Part shown: piece after piece, positions 15,395 through 40,843 of the stretch
Position numbering within the stretch: the first letter of the stretch is position 1
Layout of the letters: each line of letters begins with the position of its first letter
IMG/VR virus record: IMGVR_UViG_3300047469_000395
Span: 1 to 64,000 of that record
Reading direction: 5' to 3' (one strand)
Source of the DNA: a virus
DNA: 64,000 nucleotides
Position numbers and translations under genes: made by a program
Notes under the pieces: model-generated
The model's database searches: none
What the model saw: only the letters and a program-made list of their open reading frames with translations
What the model was told of the DNA's origin: nothing

Positions 15395-15856
15395 ATGGAT
15401 GATCTTCAGGCCCGGCTGCAGCGGGAGGAAGAAATCAGGCGACAAAATGCGGCGTTATTTACACGCGACGAGGGCGCTTGGTTCACGGGGGTGCCGGGTA
15501 CTGACCCGGTCGACAGCAGCTGGATCTTTTGGACTTACTTCTCTATCTTCGCCGCCTTGGTGTTGATGGGAATCCTTACAGCACTTTACGATGGGATACC
15601 CGAGTTCCTGCGAATTTGGGGGAGATATTCTCCTTGGCTGCCATCGGGCACCGTGCCGGTCGTACTGGCACTGATCGTCCGCCGCAAAAGGCTGACTGCT
15701 GGAAGTTACGGTGTCGTTGCGGCGATTATGGCCTTTTCGTTCTTGGTCAATATGGCGACCATGTCACTCGCCCCATTGGTATGTCCGATCCTGGCGTTCG
15801 TAGTGCTCATCAAAATATTCTTTTTCCCAGGAAGGAAGAGGGCAAAAACCGTATAG
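15395..15856 (+). CDS. Multi-pass membrane protein, lysogeny-region cargo
   Basis: 153 residues from MDDLQARLQ, with AAAGGAG upstream and TATAAT about 37 bp before. A charged N-terminus is followed by about four hydrophobic spans (roughly 45-67, 75-100, 108-126, 128-145). It is a self-contained unit with its own terminator, pointing away from OL. Family not recognised; membrane cargo in this position is often expressed in lysogens (inference). Confidence 0.7.
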   Translation: MDDLQARLQREEEIRRQNAALFTRDEGAWFTGVPGTDPVDSSWIFWTYFSIFAALVLMGILTALYDGIPEFLRIWGRYSPWLPSGTVPVVLALIVRRKRLTAGSYGVVAAIMAFSFLVNMATMSLAPLVCPILAFVVLIKIFFFPGRKRAKTV

Positions 15857-15875
15857 CTAGTTCGAAGCTATGCCA

Positions 15876-15898
15876 GCCGCCTGAGGGCGGCTTTTTTA
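15876..15898 (+). terminator. Intrinsic terminator
   Basis: GCCGCC/GGCGGC stem with a TGAG loop followed by six T, 20 bp after the membrane gene. Confidence 0.88.
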
Positions 15899-16020
15899 TT
15901 GGTTAGTTATCTTGACTCCTAGGCTGGGCTTCTTGCTGCACCAAGAACATGCCATTACAGTCGGATATTGTATAAGAGTGACACCTGGAAATCGTACTAA
16001 TTGCGCACGCACTTGGTGCA

Positions 16021-16043
16021 AAAAAGCCCGCCGGGGCGGGCCT
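16021..16043 (-). terminator. Intrinsic terminator (leftward)
   Basis: On the minus strand a GCCCGCC/GGCGGGC stem is followed by six T, downstream of the secreted-protein gene at 16077. Confidence 0.85.
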
Positions 16044-16076
16044 TACGGTTGAGTGTTGGCCGATCAGATGTAGCTA

Positions 16077-16325
16077 TTACATGCCTGGTTCGTGTCCTGG
16101 GTTGCAGTCGAAGGTTTCGTATGTGTAATATTGAGTCTTGATTCCCCAGTGGAATCCAGCATGACAGCCATTGCCTGACTCGCCCACCAACTCATTCATC
16201 TCCGGATCAGCGTAATATGAATAGAGGCGTGCTGTATCTGGTTCGGCGACCACTACGTTGGAATAGGCAACCCCAGCTAGACCCGCTGCGGCCAATACCG
16301 CCGCCATCAGTTTTCCTGCTTTCAT
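16077..16325 (-). CDS. Small secreted protein (DUF6289-like)
   Basis: 82 residues with a clear Sec signal peptide (MKAGKLMAAVLAAAGLAG, cleavage near residue 28). The mature part, SYYADPEMNELVGESGN, then HWGIKTQYYTYETFDC, resembles DUF6289 proteins: small exported proteins with YY...LVGE and paired Cys. GAGGGGA precedes the ATG and a terminator follows. A single-gene cargo unit; function unknown. Confidence 0.72.
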   Translation of the reverse strand: MKAGKLMAAVLAAAGLAGVAYSNVVVAEPDTARLYSYYADPEMNELVGESGNGCHAGFHWGIKTQYYTYETFDCNPGHEPGM

Positions 16326-36643: not shown

Positions 36644-37192
36644 ATGGGCTTCGCCGACCGCTTTCTTCACGCTGTAAATTCCACCAATTTGCAGGACGAC
36701 GCGCACCACCACGACACCGATCCGCTGTGCGCTGCAGCGCTGGCGGATACGGCGGGCGCTGGCATTGGCTCGCTGCTGTCGCGCGTGAAGTACGCCGACG
36801 GCACGCAGCACAAGCTGTTCGAATCCGGTAGTGCCAACCTGGCGCAGCTGCTGCGCATCTGGACCGCGCGGGTGATCGAGAAGGGCCGCGAGCGCAAATG
36901 GGTGAAGGAGGGTACCGCGTGGGACGCCCAAGCCGCCCAGGTGCTGTACCGCCGCGTCGCCGAGCGCTCTCTGGGCTACTGGCTCGATGGGAAGTGCGAG
37001 AGTTGCCACGGCAGCGGCAACACCGTCGACCGTCGCATCTGCGCGCCCTGCAAGGGATCAGGGCGTGGAGCGGTTGGCGGCTCTGGGTTCGAGCGCGAGC
37101 GGGTGCTCGACATGGTCAGCGAGCTGGAGGGGCTTCTGCAAGCGCACAACGGCCGTGCCGCCGGCATGCTGCGTACTCAACGCGAGGTTTGA
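36644..37192 (+). CDS. Q-like protein with DnaJ-type zinc finger
   Basis: 182 residues; GAGGTAA upstream. YRRVAERSLGYWLDGK is followed by two zinc knuckles, CESCHGSGN and CAPCKGSGRG. This is the arrangement of phage antitermination Q proteins of the 82/DnaJ-finger type, and its place - last early gene before late genes - fits. A Q role would explain read-through of the terminators among the late genes. Confidence 0.65.
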   Translation: MGFADRFLHAVNSTNLQDDAHHHDTDPLCAAALADTAGAGIGSLLSRVKYADGTQHKLFESGSANLAQLLRIWTARVIEKGRERKWVKEGTAWDAQAAQVLYRRVAERSLGYWLDGKCESCHGSGNTVDRRICAPCKGSGRGAVGGSGFERERVLDMVSELEGLLQAHNGRAAGMLRTQREV

Positions 37193-37235: not shown

Positions 37236-37463
37236 ATGGATATCCGAACTGAACGAATGTGCAGAGTGGCGGCGGAGCTGGCAGAGATGCACGGGCGCCT
37301 GTTCGCTGCGGCGTTTTTGGCAGAAAATCGTGTTGCGATTGACGTAGCTCTTGACTTGCTTGCCGGCGGGGCCGCGCGGTCGTGCTATCGTTGGCACGTT
37401 GGGCTAACTGATCGAGGTACCCCATGCCATCAAAAAAATCCGCTTCCCACGCAGGAAAAGTAG
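37236..37463 (+). CDS. Hypothetical phage protein, 3' end possibly replaced
   Basis: 75 residues from MDIRTERMCRV. AELAEMHGRLFAAAFLAENRVA is common in short phage proteins near Q; these usually end soon after this motif. Here the frame continues 40 bp into the recombinase gene with unlike sequence, suggesting its original end was lost. Confidence 0.5.
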   Translation: MDIRTERMCRVAAELAEMHGRLFAAAFLAENRVAIDVALDLLAGGAARSCYRWHVGLTDRGTPCHQKNPLPTQEK

Positions 37464-38962
37464 TAACGCGGAAAGCAGCCTCCTATCTTCGAATGTCTTC
37501 TGATGGCCAAGCCGGATCCATCGCCAACCAGCGCGCGGCGATCGCAGCGTATGCGCGCCTGCACCGGATGGAGGTGATAACTGAGTATGCCGACCCCGGC
37601 AAGAGCGGCCTCGGCATAAAGGGGCGGCCCGGTCTTCAGCGATTATTTTCGGACGTTGCGAGCAGGGGCGTCGAGTACTCGGTGATACTGGTCTACGACG
37701 TTAGCCGGTGGGGGCGATTCCAGGATGTCGATGAGAGCGCACACTACGAATTCCTCTGCCGGAATGCTGGAATCGACGTGATTTACTGCGCGGAGGAGTT
37801 CGATAACGACGGTTCTGCAATCGCCGCGATCGTCAAGACCATGAAGCGCGCCATGGCTGCGGAATACAGCCGTGCGCTGTCAGTCAAAGTGTTTGAGGCC
37901 CAGTCCCGGCTCGCGAAGGCTGGATATAAGCAAGGTGGGCCGGCTGGCTATGGCTTGCGCAGGGCGTCGGTAGGAGCAGATGGCGCCATCCGCCGGATCT
38001 TGGCGAGCGGGGACCGTAAGGGTGCGCCGGCTGATCACGTGGTGTTTGTAGCGGGCCCCGATGATGAAGTGGCCATGGTGCGCCAGATATATGATTGGTA
38101 CATAAGCAGGGAGAAAGGGGATACAGCTATTGCCGCTGAACTGAATGCGCGCGGCATTAAATCTGAATCCGGTAGGCCGTGGACGCCGCCGGTCGTCGTG
38201 AGCATACTGACGAATGAGAAGTACATCGGCACCGTGGTGTACAACCGGAGATCGTACAAGCTGCAGGGTGAAGTTTGCGACAACCCGCGTGGTGCTTGGA
38301 TCAAAAAATCTCGTGCCTTTCCGGCCCTGGTTGATCCAGAAGTCTTCCATCAGGCACAGGACATTCGACGGGAGCGCGCGCAGCGATACTCGCGGCAGGA
38401 GCTGGTAGGCATCCTGCGGCGCATCTATTCGAAGCACGGCGAAATATCAACGAAGCTGATCGACGAAGATCCGGGCGGGCCGCACCACAATGCGTTTCTC
38501 AACCGATTTCAAACGCTCAGCAATGCCTACCGTCTCGCCGGAGTGCCAGCTACGCAGCGAGCGGACCGTTACCTCGACAGCTTGCGGAAGATCGAGACCA
38601 TCCGCAACGACGCGATGGCGAAGATCAGGGAGTGCGTGGCCGCTGTCGGTGGCACGCTCGATCTGCTGCCATCGAAGAATGCGTTCGTTCTAAACGGCTC
38701 GGCGCACACAAGGTTATTGGTCGTCCGGGCGCGTCGCAACCGGAGTGACCGGCCTTTCCGCTGGAATGTGCCGCTGAAGCAGGTGCCGGGTGTTCAATTT
38801 GTCATCGCCGTCCAGCTGGAGCCATCCCACAACCAGATACGAAACGTTCTCCTTTTCCCAGTGGAGGCGTTTGCCTATTCAAACATCGTGATGCGAGAGG
38901 AGTGGCCAGACGAATTTGCGCGCTTTCGATATTTTGATATTGCTGCGATTTTTGGATGTTGA
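37424..38962 (+). CDS. Large serine recombinase with atypical C-terminus
   Basis: 512 residues; GAGGTA upstream. The resolvase domain spans about 16-165, with catalytic Ser25 in SYLRMSSDGQ and conserved DVSRWGR. The recombinase domain follows (AGYKQGGPAGYGL, VVSILTNEKYIGTVVYNR). In place of the zinc ribbon the C-terminus has HNAFLNRFQTLSNAYRLAG and an unrecognised strand-rich end. This second recombinase, in the middle of the prophage between Q and the late genes, may mark an inserted element or a DNA-inverting or excising switch. Confidence 0.85.
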   Translation: MPSKKSASHAGKVVTRKAASYLRMSSDGQAGSIANQRAAIAAYARLHRMEVITEYADPGKSGLGIKGRPGLQRLFSDVASRGVEYSVILVYDVSRWGRFQDVDESAHYEFLCRNAGIDVIYCAEEFDNDGSAIAAIVKTMKRAMAAEYSRALSVKVFEAQSRLAKAGYKQGGPAGYGLRRASVGADGAIRRILASGDRKGAPADHVVFVAGPDDEVAMVRQIYDWYISREKGDTAIAAELNARGIKSESGRPWTPPVVVSILTNEKYIGTVVYNRRSYKLQGEVCDNPRGAWIKKSRAFPALVDPEVFHQAQDIRRERAQRYSRQELVGILRRIYSKHGEISTKLIDEDPGGPHHNAFLNRFQTLSNAYRLAGVPATQRADRYLDSLRKIETIRNDAMAKIRECVAAVGGTLDLLPSKNAFVLNGSAHTRLLVVRARRNRSDRPFRWNVPLKQVPGVQFVIAVQLEPSHNQIRNVLLFPVEAFAYSNIVMREEWPDEFARFRYFDIAAIFGC

Positions 38963-39128
38963 CATCACGCATTGAGTACGTTAACGTCCAGTCTCACACA
39001 CTTACTGCGTGTCGTAATGCAGGCTTCGAGCCTCACCGCTAGCAGTGATTCGAGGCTTGCACCAACTCCGTTGATGCTTTCGCTCGCGTGTACCGCTCAC
39101 TTCGCAGATAGCGCTGGAGCAAACATCG

Positions 39129-39153
39129 AAGCCACCCTTGCGGTGGCTTTTTC
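39129..39153 (+). terminator. Intrinsic terminator after the recombinase region
   Basis: GCCACC/GGTGGC stem, CTTGC loop, then TTTTTC. The stretch 38963-39128 before it has an imperfect inverted repeat around 39018-39061 and no gene. Confidence 0.85.
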
Positions 39154-39181
39154 TATTTCGGCGCCACTTCGCGAGGCGGCC

Positions 39182-39343
39182 ATGACGCAAACGACGCACC
39201 CGACAAAGCAGCTGGTCCGTGACTACATGGACGAGCGCACGAAGTCGGACGACCCACCGCCGGCGCCGGCTGAGATTCGGCGCCAGCTGGGATGGGATCT
39301 GTTGCCGGCCAACCGCCAGCCAGACCGCGCCGACCGAGATTGA
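39182..39343 (+). CDS. Small phage protein (53 aa)
   Basis: GAGG upstream of ATG 39182. LVRDYMDERTKSDDPPPAPA, then EIRRQLGWDL, matches a recurrent small phage protein of unknown role. The longer frame upstream is rejected because it crosses the terminator. Confidence 0.65.
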   Translation: MTQTTHPTKQLVRDYMDERTKSDDPPPAPAEIRRQLGWDLLPANRQPDRADRD

Positions 39344-39975
39344 ACCGCGCAGGCCGCGCAAAGCCGGCCGCCAAGGAGGTGCATCATGAAGTAGCGAAGC
39401 CCCAAGCTCCACCGCCCAGTGCCAATTCCGACACGCCAGCGGCGTAGAAGCGCGACGTGATGCGCAAGGGTCAAAAATCGGCTGATGAGTTTCGGAGCAC
39501 CCGCCCGGAGATACTCAGGGGACGCCACAAAGCGCAGCTATCTAATTCACGGCCTACGGGCCACCACCAGCCGGACGCCGCCGCAAGGCCGCGCGCCAGA
39601 CCGGCCCTCAGGACGCTGTAACCTGGGAACCACACACCAGCGACGACATCGCGCGCGATGAATCAAAGTCCGCAGGCAATTAGACCACGAACACGCTGAG
39701 CCGCAGCACCTGGCGGCCAATGACCCAAAGGTACTCGTGGAAACCGACCGGCAAGCCGGTTCGCTGATGTGTGGTGAATGCGCAGGCTGATGCGCTTAGT
39801 CTAAGCCCGAGAGGGTGATGGGTAGTTGGGCATACCGAGCCGGCAGACTCCGGCGGTGAGGCTGAAACGCTGCCACCCAACCCATGCCGGGGTATCAGTT
39901 CCGGCCGCCGCAACAATTCGCTGCACCTGCGTTAGTCCCGAGGCCACGGCAGAGGACGAGACCGCAGGGCGGCAG
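39344..39975 (+). ncRNA. Candidate large structured non-coding RNA
   Basis: About 630 bp without a credible gene. Helices seen by eye: 39629-39643 with 39761-39775 (14 of 15 bp); inside it a 14-bp palindrome (39647-39660), 39685-39690 with 39735-39740, GCCGC/GCGGC (39700-39704/39713-39717) and ACCGGC/GCCGGT (39747-39760). Also 39818-39830 with 39876-39885 (10 bp) and a pseudoknot 39832-39836 with 39891-39895; 39921-39931 with 39963-39975; a GGCC(TACG)GGCC hairpin at 39551; GCC(GCAA)GGC at 39580. Stable tetraloops favour the plus strand. A tRNA gene lies 360 bp downstream. Confidence 0.5.
39373..39394 (+). other. Two-codon minigene with very strong Shine-Dalgarno
   Basis: AAGGAGGTG followed after four bases by ATG AAG TAG. 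Nine contiguous bases pair with the 16S rRNA 3' end, far more than neighbouring genes have, yet the frame is only two codons. Confidence 0.35.
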
Positions 39976-40260
39976 TCAGCGTGCCGCTTGCGGCGTGCTG
40001 CTCACACCGAGCAAAGTAGCAGATCGCGCAGCTAAGTGTTTGTGCTTCAGCTGATAGTACAAAGAGGTCTCGCCGGTGTCGTGAGTCTCGACGGGGTGCT
40101 CTTCGAATGTCAGGTAAAAGTGCGACTCGGCGAGCGTCAGGCCAACCAGCACTTCATCGCCATCGTCGTCGACCGTTAGCGCTCCCCGCAGGAGGAGTTC
40201 GCTGCGTCGCGCATCGTCCAGGTCTAGCATTTCCGCCTCGCTCGTTGTTAGGGGCGTCAT
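39976..40260 (-). CDS. Hypothetical leftward protein beside the tRNA gene
   Basis: 94 residues from MTPLTTSEAEMLDLDDARRS. Acidic, with a strand-rich centre (EVLVGLTLAESHFYLTFEE). Opposite to the phage operons, next to the receiver-domain gene. No good ribosome site. Unrecognised. Confidence 0.5.
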   Translation of the reverse strand: MTPLTTSEAEMLDLDDARRSELLLRGALTVDDDGDEVLVGLTLAESHFYLTFEEHPVETHDTGETSLYYQLKHKHLAARSATLLGVSSTPQAAR

Positions 40261-40336
40261 GGATTTTACGTCTTTTGATCGAGGCACGCGGCACGCTACG
40301 GCTGAGAAAAGCAGGTTGCAAATTAGCAAAAGATAC

Positions 40337-40411
40337 GCGGGCATAGCCAAGTGGCAAGGCGTCGTCCTTCCAAGTCGATACGCGCGGGTTCGATCCCCGC
40401 TGCCCGCTCCA
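40337..40411 (+). tRNA. tRNA-Gly (UCC)
   Basis: Full cloverleaf with encoded CCA. Acceptor GCGGGCA/TGCCCGC; D arm GCC/GGC; anticodon loop CTTCCAA with anticodon TCC; anticodon stem has one T-T mismatch; T arm GCGGG-TTCGATC-CCCGC. It lies well inside the prophage, so it is phage-borne rather than the integration target. Confidence 0.9.
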
Positions 40412-40480: not shown

Positions 40481-40843
40481 TCACTCCGCGTACCGTAGTA
40501 GCGACGCGGTGATGACCTCGAGATGAACTGGCTTTAACAGGTAGGCATCAAAGTCAGCCATCGCAGCGAGCGGGTTTGTTGGCTCAAAAGGAGTTGCCGA
40601 GACTGCTACGAGACTGAGATGCTTGCGAGACGCGGATAGTCTCCTGATGTGACATGCGAGCACGTAGCCATCAAGATCGGGCAGCCTTATGTCCAGGACG
40701 ATGGCATCATATTCATTCGCAGTTGCAAGGTTTAGTGCGCGATAGCCAGAGTGTGCCAGCTCCACCTTGTGGCCAAGCAATGCAAAATACTCACCATAGA
40801 GCTCGGCCGTATCGGAATTGTCGTCTACGAACAGCAAGCGCAT
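40481..40843 (-). CDS. Stand-alone response-regulator receiver (CheY-like)
   Basis: 120 residues; AGGAC upstream. Receiver signature: RLLFVDDNSDTAELY (acidic pocket), AIVLDIRLPDLDG with the phospho-acceptor Asp, VAVSATPFE and the conserved Lys in YLLKPV. No output domain, so it must act by protein contact. No kinase gene is nearby; it would rely on a host histidine kinase. Leftward cargo flanking the tRNA. Confidence 0.92.
   Translation of the reverse strand: MRLLFVDDNSDTAELYGEYFALLGHKVELAHSGYRALNLATANEYDAIVLDIRLPDLDGYVLACHIRRLSASRKHLSLVAVSATPFEPTNPLAAMADFDAYLLKPVHLEVITASLLRYAE

Follow-up and report, generated by a model that had tools for sequence, protein, structure and literature searches.

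What does a phage carry at positions 39344–39975, between its serine recombinase gene (37424–38962) and a block of metallopeptidase, DUF2280 and terminase genes? The window analyzed here, a stretch of 64,000 nucleotides, makes up most of a 70.6-kb IMG/VR virus record (IMGVR_UViG_3300047469_000395). We find in this place a structured plus-strand RNA whose helices covary, a minigene bearing the signature of translation, a linkage to tRNA genes, and a core common to many phages. The original prediction, a structured non-coding RNA beside a phage tRNA, located in the late region with the recombinase and terminase genes on either side, is supported by covariation among homologues. Its statement that the stretch holds no credible gene stands for protein genes and fails for a two-codon minigene at 39386–39394. 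Besides this minigene, two things had been overlooked: the leader upstream, with its promoter and terminator, and an RNA family, present in many phages, whose core makes up part of the stretch. The elements, in order, are the following.

Module U, 38959–39155, plus strand: conserved upstream leader (17-locus alignment, terminator scan).
Small ORF, 39182–39343, plus strand: 53 codons, conserved as a protein (17 viral relatives, 45–89% identity).
Module A, 39352–39394, plus strand: GGCCG/CGGCC hairpin, Shine-Dalgarno sequence and minigene, kept across loci.
Module B, 39447–39530, plus strand: GCGC hairpin and long stem-loop with the loop AGCACCCGC (covariation).
UNCG hairpin, 39551–39562, plus strand: GGCC-UNCG-GGCC, with the tetraloop UACG in the window.
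Module C, 39564–39630, plus strand: two hairpins, C1 and C2 (covariation).
Module D, 39629–39775, plus strand: helix 39629–39643/39761–39775 enclosing a variable interior (arm-swap test).
X/T, 39770–39912, plus strand: cloverleaf-like core (recurrence of a 27-mer, stem covariation).
Module E, 39916–39975, plus strand: internal-loop hairpin CCUGCG-UUA-RUCC...GGAY-GAGAC-CGCAGG (covariation).
orfM, 39976–40350, minus strand: opposite-strand gene (moron) that this phage and a few relatives carry between E and the tRNA.
tRNA-Gly (TCC), 40337–40411, plus strand (ARAGORN, Rfam).

Several helices had been drawn correctly from the single sequence. The 14/15-bp helix lies exactly at 39629–39643/39761–39775, the UNCG hairpin GGCC-UACG-GGCC and a GNRA hairpin (GCAA, inside module C) exist, the internal-loop helix at 39921–39975 is real and corresponds to module E, and the tRNA-Gly is found downstream. 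The claim of far more base pairing than expected did not hold: the folding energy of 39344–39975 is about that of dinucleotide shuffles (z = +0.42 and +0.52 on the two strands). Inverted repeats of 15 bp with at most one mismatch arose in 1 of 60 shuffles by Watson-Crick rules and in 5 of 60 with G-U pairs allowed; since shuffles yield repeats of like quality, the 14/15-bp repeat alone is mildly unusual and proves little. A bulged helix at 39818–39895 can be drawn within the variable domain of the cloverleaf-like core, and no homologue of it was found. ARAGORN and Rfam detect the tRNA-Gly alone around the region; Rfam searches at the gathering threshold over the window and at E≤5 over 38950–40050 gave no match within 39344–39975, GOLLD, ROOL and tmRNA included. 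As we read the sequences, the significance of the region lies in covariation among relatives and not in single-sequence energy.

Modules C, E and B were first aligned by MAFFT without structure (alignments A2, A3 and A4, respectively), and covariance models built from these alignments were searched against 393 genomes of the family Oxalobacteraceae, with matches to C in 20 genomes, to E in 14 and to B in 9. Among 200 genomes of the order, the C model recovered the seed genome and one weak match only. In the MAFFT alignments 98.8% of the cells of B are paired, as are 97.6% in C and 96.8% in E; cells with two-sided changes number 4, 10 and 14, respectively, as compared with 0.4, 2.9 and 3.4 in shuffles, and pairing falls to 20–53% when the partner is slid by one to three columns. 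The model-fitted alignments, which lean to structure and include newly found loci, have two-sided changes in 11 of the 17 pairs of B (11 distinct sequences; 98.9% paired, at most 50% when slid), in 13 of the 15 pairs of C (30 distinct sequences; 53 cells versus 12.2 in shuffles; 95.7% paired, falling to 39% or less when slid), and in 6 of the 12 pairs of E (18–19 distinct sequences; 97% paired). It should be noted that the C alignment A5 includes weak R1 matches at three loci, L170, a probable false positive within a coding region, and the doubtful L146 and L178; A2, made before these were added, gives the same conclusion.

The individual modules combine fixed loops with changing stems. In most prophages, 58 nt of B are 95–100% identical; a hammerhead ribozyme, considered for CUGAUGAG in B, was rejected by inspection for want of a GAAA partner and of a fitting stem. 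The GGCC-NNCG-GGCC form of the UNCG hairpin is kept in loci L104, L107 and L127. In C1, an AGCCGG..CCGGC stem closes a GNRA/UNCG-type hairpin whose loop is UUCG or GCAA depending on the phage. The near-invariant loop of C2, ACGCUGUAA, is carried on stems that read CAGG/CCUG, CUGG/CCAG, CGAG/CUCG or CCGG/CCGG. Phages PY54 and CSP3 likewise have a C2-like hairpin, whose loop ends in GUAA, ahead of the D helix. The base of the D helix, ACCACAC/GUGUGGU (or ACCAACA/UGUUGGU), is kept in 18 loci, while the next seven pairs are rewritten and yet paired. Over columns 8–14 of these 18 loci, at least six of the seven positions pair in 89% of cases when each locus keeps its own arms and in 4.6% when arms are exchanged among loci; in L026 the helix, read by hand, has 10 bp. 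Its interior varies in sequence and in length, from 17 to about 150 nt.

The original prediction had named a lack of covariation, or a conserved protein at this place in homologues, as grounds for abandoning it. Compared with Oxalobacteraceae prophages, four modules (B, C, D and E) covary, and the homologues encode no conserved protein at the locus, so that the prediction survives on both counts. The strand can also be assigned: non-Watson-Crick cells in the conserved helices are G-U in 36 cases and A-C in 14 when read on the plus strand, which identifies the plus strand as the RNA. The minigene, the tRNA and the promoter are likewise on this strand.

The notion of one large RNA did not survive comparison, since modules are kept, lost or split singly among relatives, with genes inserted between them. 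Comparison of neighboring proteins and blastn show that short conserved non-coding blocks make up the region like a mosaic; these blocks are common to prophages of Duganella-like Oxalobacteraceae and were found by genome scan in 42 of 393 family genomes. The order is constant: leader U, the 53-codon ORF, A, B, C, D/X, E, tRNA. Single blocks are missing from individual phages or set apart by inserted genes (for example, in L006, L020, L022, L023 and L138). Opposite-strand genes for PEP-CTERM-type secreted proteins are inserted in the leader region at L006 5557–6117, L020 488–1330 and G337 3268865–3269647; the leader region behaves as a cargo-gene hotspot. A further conserved non-coding block, GCGGGTAGTTTGGCACTGGCGAGGCCTTAGCGCATCAATCAGCC, is located just upstream of C in L031, L034 and L163–L168 and is probably another structured module.

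The linkage to tRNA genes is strong. A same-strand tRNA lies less than 0.9 kb downstream in 19 of 31 C-bearing loci, as compared with an expectation of about 0.6% per locus; most copies of E stand 10–56 nt upstream of a tRNA. Just after the tRNA of the window, the phage encodes a stand-alone response-regulator receiver domain (40481–40843, minus strand).

Upstream of the structured region, U begins with a predicted promoter (TTGACA at 38959–38964, a 17-nt spacer, and TAACGT at 38982–38987), whose activity we infer. About 165 nt of conserved RNA follow, and then an intrinsic terminator (39128–39150 plus a T tract). The TTGACA-17/18-TAACGT arrangement and the stretch GCTCACTTCGCAGATAGCGCTGGAGC are kept in most loci of the 17-locus alignment, and U is present in nearly all of these prophages; the leader is probably a structured RNA of about 165 nt. 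In position and, as far as letters can tell, in anatomy, with a promoter, a short leader and an intrinsic terminator upstream of late genes, U resembles the pR'-6S RNA-tR' late leader of phage lambda, which, as annotated in HK620 and HK633, comprises a promoter, a leader of about 165–190 nt, a terminator and the late region. The late leader of HK620 and HK633 holds the same RNA core as the window; unlike in lambda, structured RNA modules and a tRNA occupy the downstream leader in this phage. A candidate Q protein (36644–37192) has a weak match to a CXXCXGXG zinc finger. The 53-codon ORF that follows U (39182–39343) has no match in Pfam or PHROG.

In module A, a strong Shine-Dalgarno sequence, AAGGAGGTG (39373–39381), is followed by CATC and then by ATG-AAG-TAG (Met-Lys-stop, 39386–39394). 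A start, one or two codons and a stop occupy this place in 26 of 34 loci; several C-bearing loci lack the minigene. Across loci the start is ATG or GTG, the sense codons are AAG (most), AAA, AAG-AAG, AAG-AAC, AAG-CGC or AAT, and the stop is TAG or TAA, being UAG in 24 of 26. Because the codon exchanges preserve the meaning and always leave an ORF of two or three codons, we regard this as strong evidence that the minigene is translated. In 22 whole genomes the pattern GGAGGTGNNNNRTGAAGTAG has eight copies, all within 0.3 kb of module C, and the reversed pattern has none. An origin by decay from a phage gene that starts MK..RSPK was considered and rejected: relatives keep the stems, the loops and the two-codon frame, and the rest drifts, with frame-breaking indels. 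To our knowledge, this two-codon gene has not been described before as a conserved element.

The cloverleaf-like core is the most widespread part of the region. The 27-mer 39770–39796, on the 3' side of the D helix, recurs exactly or nearly so in 204–217 of 50,697 phage records, and also in plasmids and in at least 120 viral contigs. It is unannotated in the laboratory coliphages HK620 and HK633, where it lies between Q-pR'-qut and the S holin; in phage D3 it lies within a tRNA cluster, under the putative orf86; in the lytic phage ASO78B it stands just before tRNA-Ser and tRNA-Arg; and it is found in P1, PY54 and Burkholderia phage CSP3 as well. The conserved fold comprises, in order, a 7-bp stem, AAU, a hairpin GCGC-AGGCUGAU-GCGC, a variable domain and a GCCGG hairpin. 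In the window the stem is UGUGGUG (39770–39776)/CGCCGCA (39906–39912) with two G-U pairs, the first hairpin lies at 39780–39795, the variable domain at 39796–39885, and the second hairpin, GCCGG-AGAUCAGCA-CCGGC (39886–39905), abuts the 3' strand of the stem. With the unnamed RNA of HK620, D3 and PY54 the window thus shares the exact core TGTGGTGAATGCGCAGGCTGATGCG, the 7-bp stem and the abutting GCCGG hairpin. All seven pairs of the stem form in 80 of 90 loci, with covariants such as GTTGGTG/CACCAAC, TTGGATG/CATCCAA and CGTGGTG/CACCACG; this test was used in place of a control with shuffled acceptor strands, which proved too permissive (87/116). The 5' strand of the core also pairs upstream in the D helix, and an alternative pairing is possible, as 45 of 56 loci keep both options.

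ARAGORN and Rfam recognize in the core no tRNA cloverleaf with an anticodon arm and T-loop. The loop before the acceptor-like strand is GGTATCAGTT, which is no canonical T-loop, and no CCA follows CGCCGCA; any tRNA mimicry is therefore only architectural. Other identities were tried for the 27-mer. An insertion-element end or a group II intron was discarded, there being no Rfam match and the sequence being the conserved core of an RNA in many phages, and integron attC sites were discarded as there is no GTTRRRY core. In D3 (L371 1405–1719) the hypothetical orf86 overlaps the RNA core, with orf85 beside it; these two may not be real genes. A 32-nt CRISPR spacer with a 28-nt CRISPR-DR4 repeat in an Oxalobacteraceae-family genome (L150 929–960) matches 39770–39796, and hosts have therefore sampled this phage RNA locus.

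The existence, strand and architecture of the RNA region are, in our opinion, well supported; its function we infer. The preferred reading, to which we give an even chance, sees in the region the 5' portion of a late transcript that bears a phage tRNA and tRNA-linked RNA domains, these probably acting on translation. Starting from the conserved U promoter, transcription would in the lysogen go no further than the U terminator; a Q-type antiterminator would, judging by position, let polymerase past it during lytic growth. The read-through RNA would contain the small ORF, the Met-Lys-stop minigene, B, C, the D helix, the cloverleaf-like core, E and the tRNA. The modules would be cut out together with the tRNA to give a stable tRNA-like RNA acting on translation in the dying cell, and the minigene would load ribosomes and release fMet-Lys-tRNA. 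Late, Q-dependent expression we hold to be probable; processing of the modules with the tRNA could equally go either way; and that the modules affect translation in trans, and do not act in cis, is put forward tentatively. The position of the core between Q-pR'-qut and S in HK620 and HK633, and among or before tRNAs in D3 and ASO78B, suggests the preferred reading. Counting against it are intergenic D/X sites without a tRNA at early operons (G337:C1:3287423, G328:C9:45005 and G172:C23:477803), the weak match of the candidate Q, and the UAG stops of the minigenes, which are described as making minigenes less toxic than UAA stops do (PMC8708949).

The main rival is a modular cis-acting leader in which each hairpin is a separate RNA signal, working only on the late transcript that carries it: put/nut-type antitermination, an RNase processing or stability element, or an insulator before the tRNA, with ribosome binding at the minigene protecting or pacing the leader. 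The put antitermination RNA of phage HK022, two adjacent hairpins in a phage leader, invites comparison with C1 and C2; C1 and C2, likened to it by description and not by sequence, differ from it in lying after a terminator and far from the promoter. The cis reading is favored by modules that are lost and shuffled independently, and it agrees with the direct abutment of C2 or E on the tRNA in many loci (2–60 nt). The D/X element, moreover, also heads the early operon of recombination genes in related prophages, some 18–23 kb off and on the opposite strand. In the axe-txe system leader minigenes raise the expression of the downstream gene in cis, RNase protection of the message being proposed (PMC8708949). 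Such signals, however, seldom need a covarying cloverleaf closed by 7 bp and a variable helix of 13–17 bp, and many loci have no protein gene close downstream. The closed cloverleaf-like core and the company of tRNAs favor action in trans. We regard the cis leader as a possible explanation, on the doubtful side.

Structured phage RNAs beside tRNAs are of a known kind, represented by GOLLD and ROOL (PMC12286853), and the region might be an ornate, self-assembling RNA of this sort, with the interior of D as a variable linker able to hold a tRNA. GOLLD (RF01998) and ROOL (RF03087) are likewise borne by phages or prophages near tRNAs, are similar in total size, and have a variable linker that may hold a tRNA, as reported for GOLLD (PMC12286853). 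The region is phage-borne, close to a tRNA gene and late in position, and the helix-closed interior of D is filled by tRNA-Tyr in L104 and has a tRNA at the helix tip in L136. The analogy drawn in the original prediction is thus fair as architecture; membership was rejected, as Rfam gives no match to either family at the gathering threshold or E≤5. In contrast to GOLLD and ROOL, the modules are separable and not one contiguous fold in relatives, many loci holding only one or two, and the RNA occurs in proteobacterial phages and carries a two-codon minigene. Such an RNA seems unlikely here.

The permuted tmRNAs raise a related question. In two-piece tmRNAs such as beta_tmRNA (RF01850), there are a cloverleaf-like domain, an acceptor-like stem and an abutting hairpin, which are also present in the core. 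In HK620-type relatives the core is preceded by a tmRNA-tag-like frame of 10 codons plus a stop (ANDEQFLAVA, ANDDVVLMAA, ANDDLMLMAA, ANEERFLMAA and ANEEMYLAVA), a feature shared with permuted tmRNA. These tag-frame loci are L221 2720–3110 (HK620 15814–16204), L224, L237, L254, L348, L363 and L368, and in five of the seven, weak matches to beta_tmRNA or permuted tmRNA models fall in the same place. With 828 phage records matching the HK620 RNA stretch, the HK620-type RNA is possibly an unannotated phage tmRNA. Phage DS6A is reported to have a tmRNA consisting of the tRNA-like domain (TLD) only, a kind of molecule that inhibits tmRNA (PMC4131195); analogously, the core might be a decoy that mimics the tRNA-like domain and titrates SmpB or tmRNA. 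Unlike permuted tmRNA, the window has no tag frame, canonical T-loop or CCA, and no tmRNA match by ARAGORN or by Rfam to E≤5, and we consider the decoy quite unlikely. A broader proposal, also unlikely, is that the core is a phage-made relative of the permuted-tmRNA tRNA-like domain in hundreds of phages, with a working tag frame in the HK620 type and, in Oxalobacteraceae, a Met-Lys minigene in place of the tag. If true, phages of several bacterial families would widely encode a ribosome-rescue RNA or decoy, made late and beside tRNAs.

Could the minigene itself be the working part? By analogy with lambda bar RNA, fMet-Lys-stop might trap tRNA-Lys as peptidyl-tRNA, the hairpins only stabilizing the message. 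Judged by its letters, with a Shine-Dalgarno sequence, start, sense codon and stop, the minigene is of the bar type, and the lambda bar minigenes and the axe-txe leader minigene mg2 have the same Shine-Dalgarno and two-codon make-up; here it encodes Met-Lys and not Met-Ile or Met-Thr, is conserved across dozens of prophages and is tied to structured RNA modules. The strong Shine-Dalgarno sequence, the near-invariant lysine and the exclusive linkage to C agree with such a role. In E. coli fMet-Lys-tRNA drops off readily and fast, and inactivation of peptidyl-tRNA hydrolase rapidly depletes Lys-tRNA, among others (PMC10192219). The C loci without a minigene and the predominance of UAG, reported as the less toxic kind, argue against it, and B, C and E are conserved far beyond what stabilizers would need; this explanation is improbable. 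Lastly, a decayed protein gene or chance folding, suggested by the ordinary single-sequence folding energy and by a Shine-Dalgarno sequence and ATGAAG that resemble a gene start, is refuted by covariation, that is, by compensatory changes and invariant loops on variable stems, and by frame-breaking indels among relatives.

The modules have no member in Rfam 15, and no description of them was found in the open-access literature; the RNA family, its modular build and the conserved two-codon gene are, as far as tested here, new. Covariation thus supports an RNA family that is absent from Rfam and unannotated in HK620, D3, P1, PY54 and Klebsiella and Salmonella phages, with its sites in sequenced phages located in the late leader or in tRNA clusters. 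Together, the RNA family and the minigene make testable the late effects of phages on translation and the question of why phages carry tRNAs.
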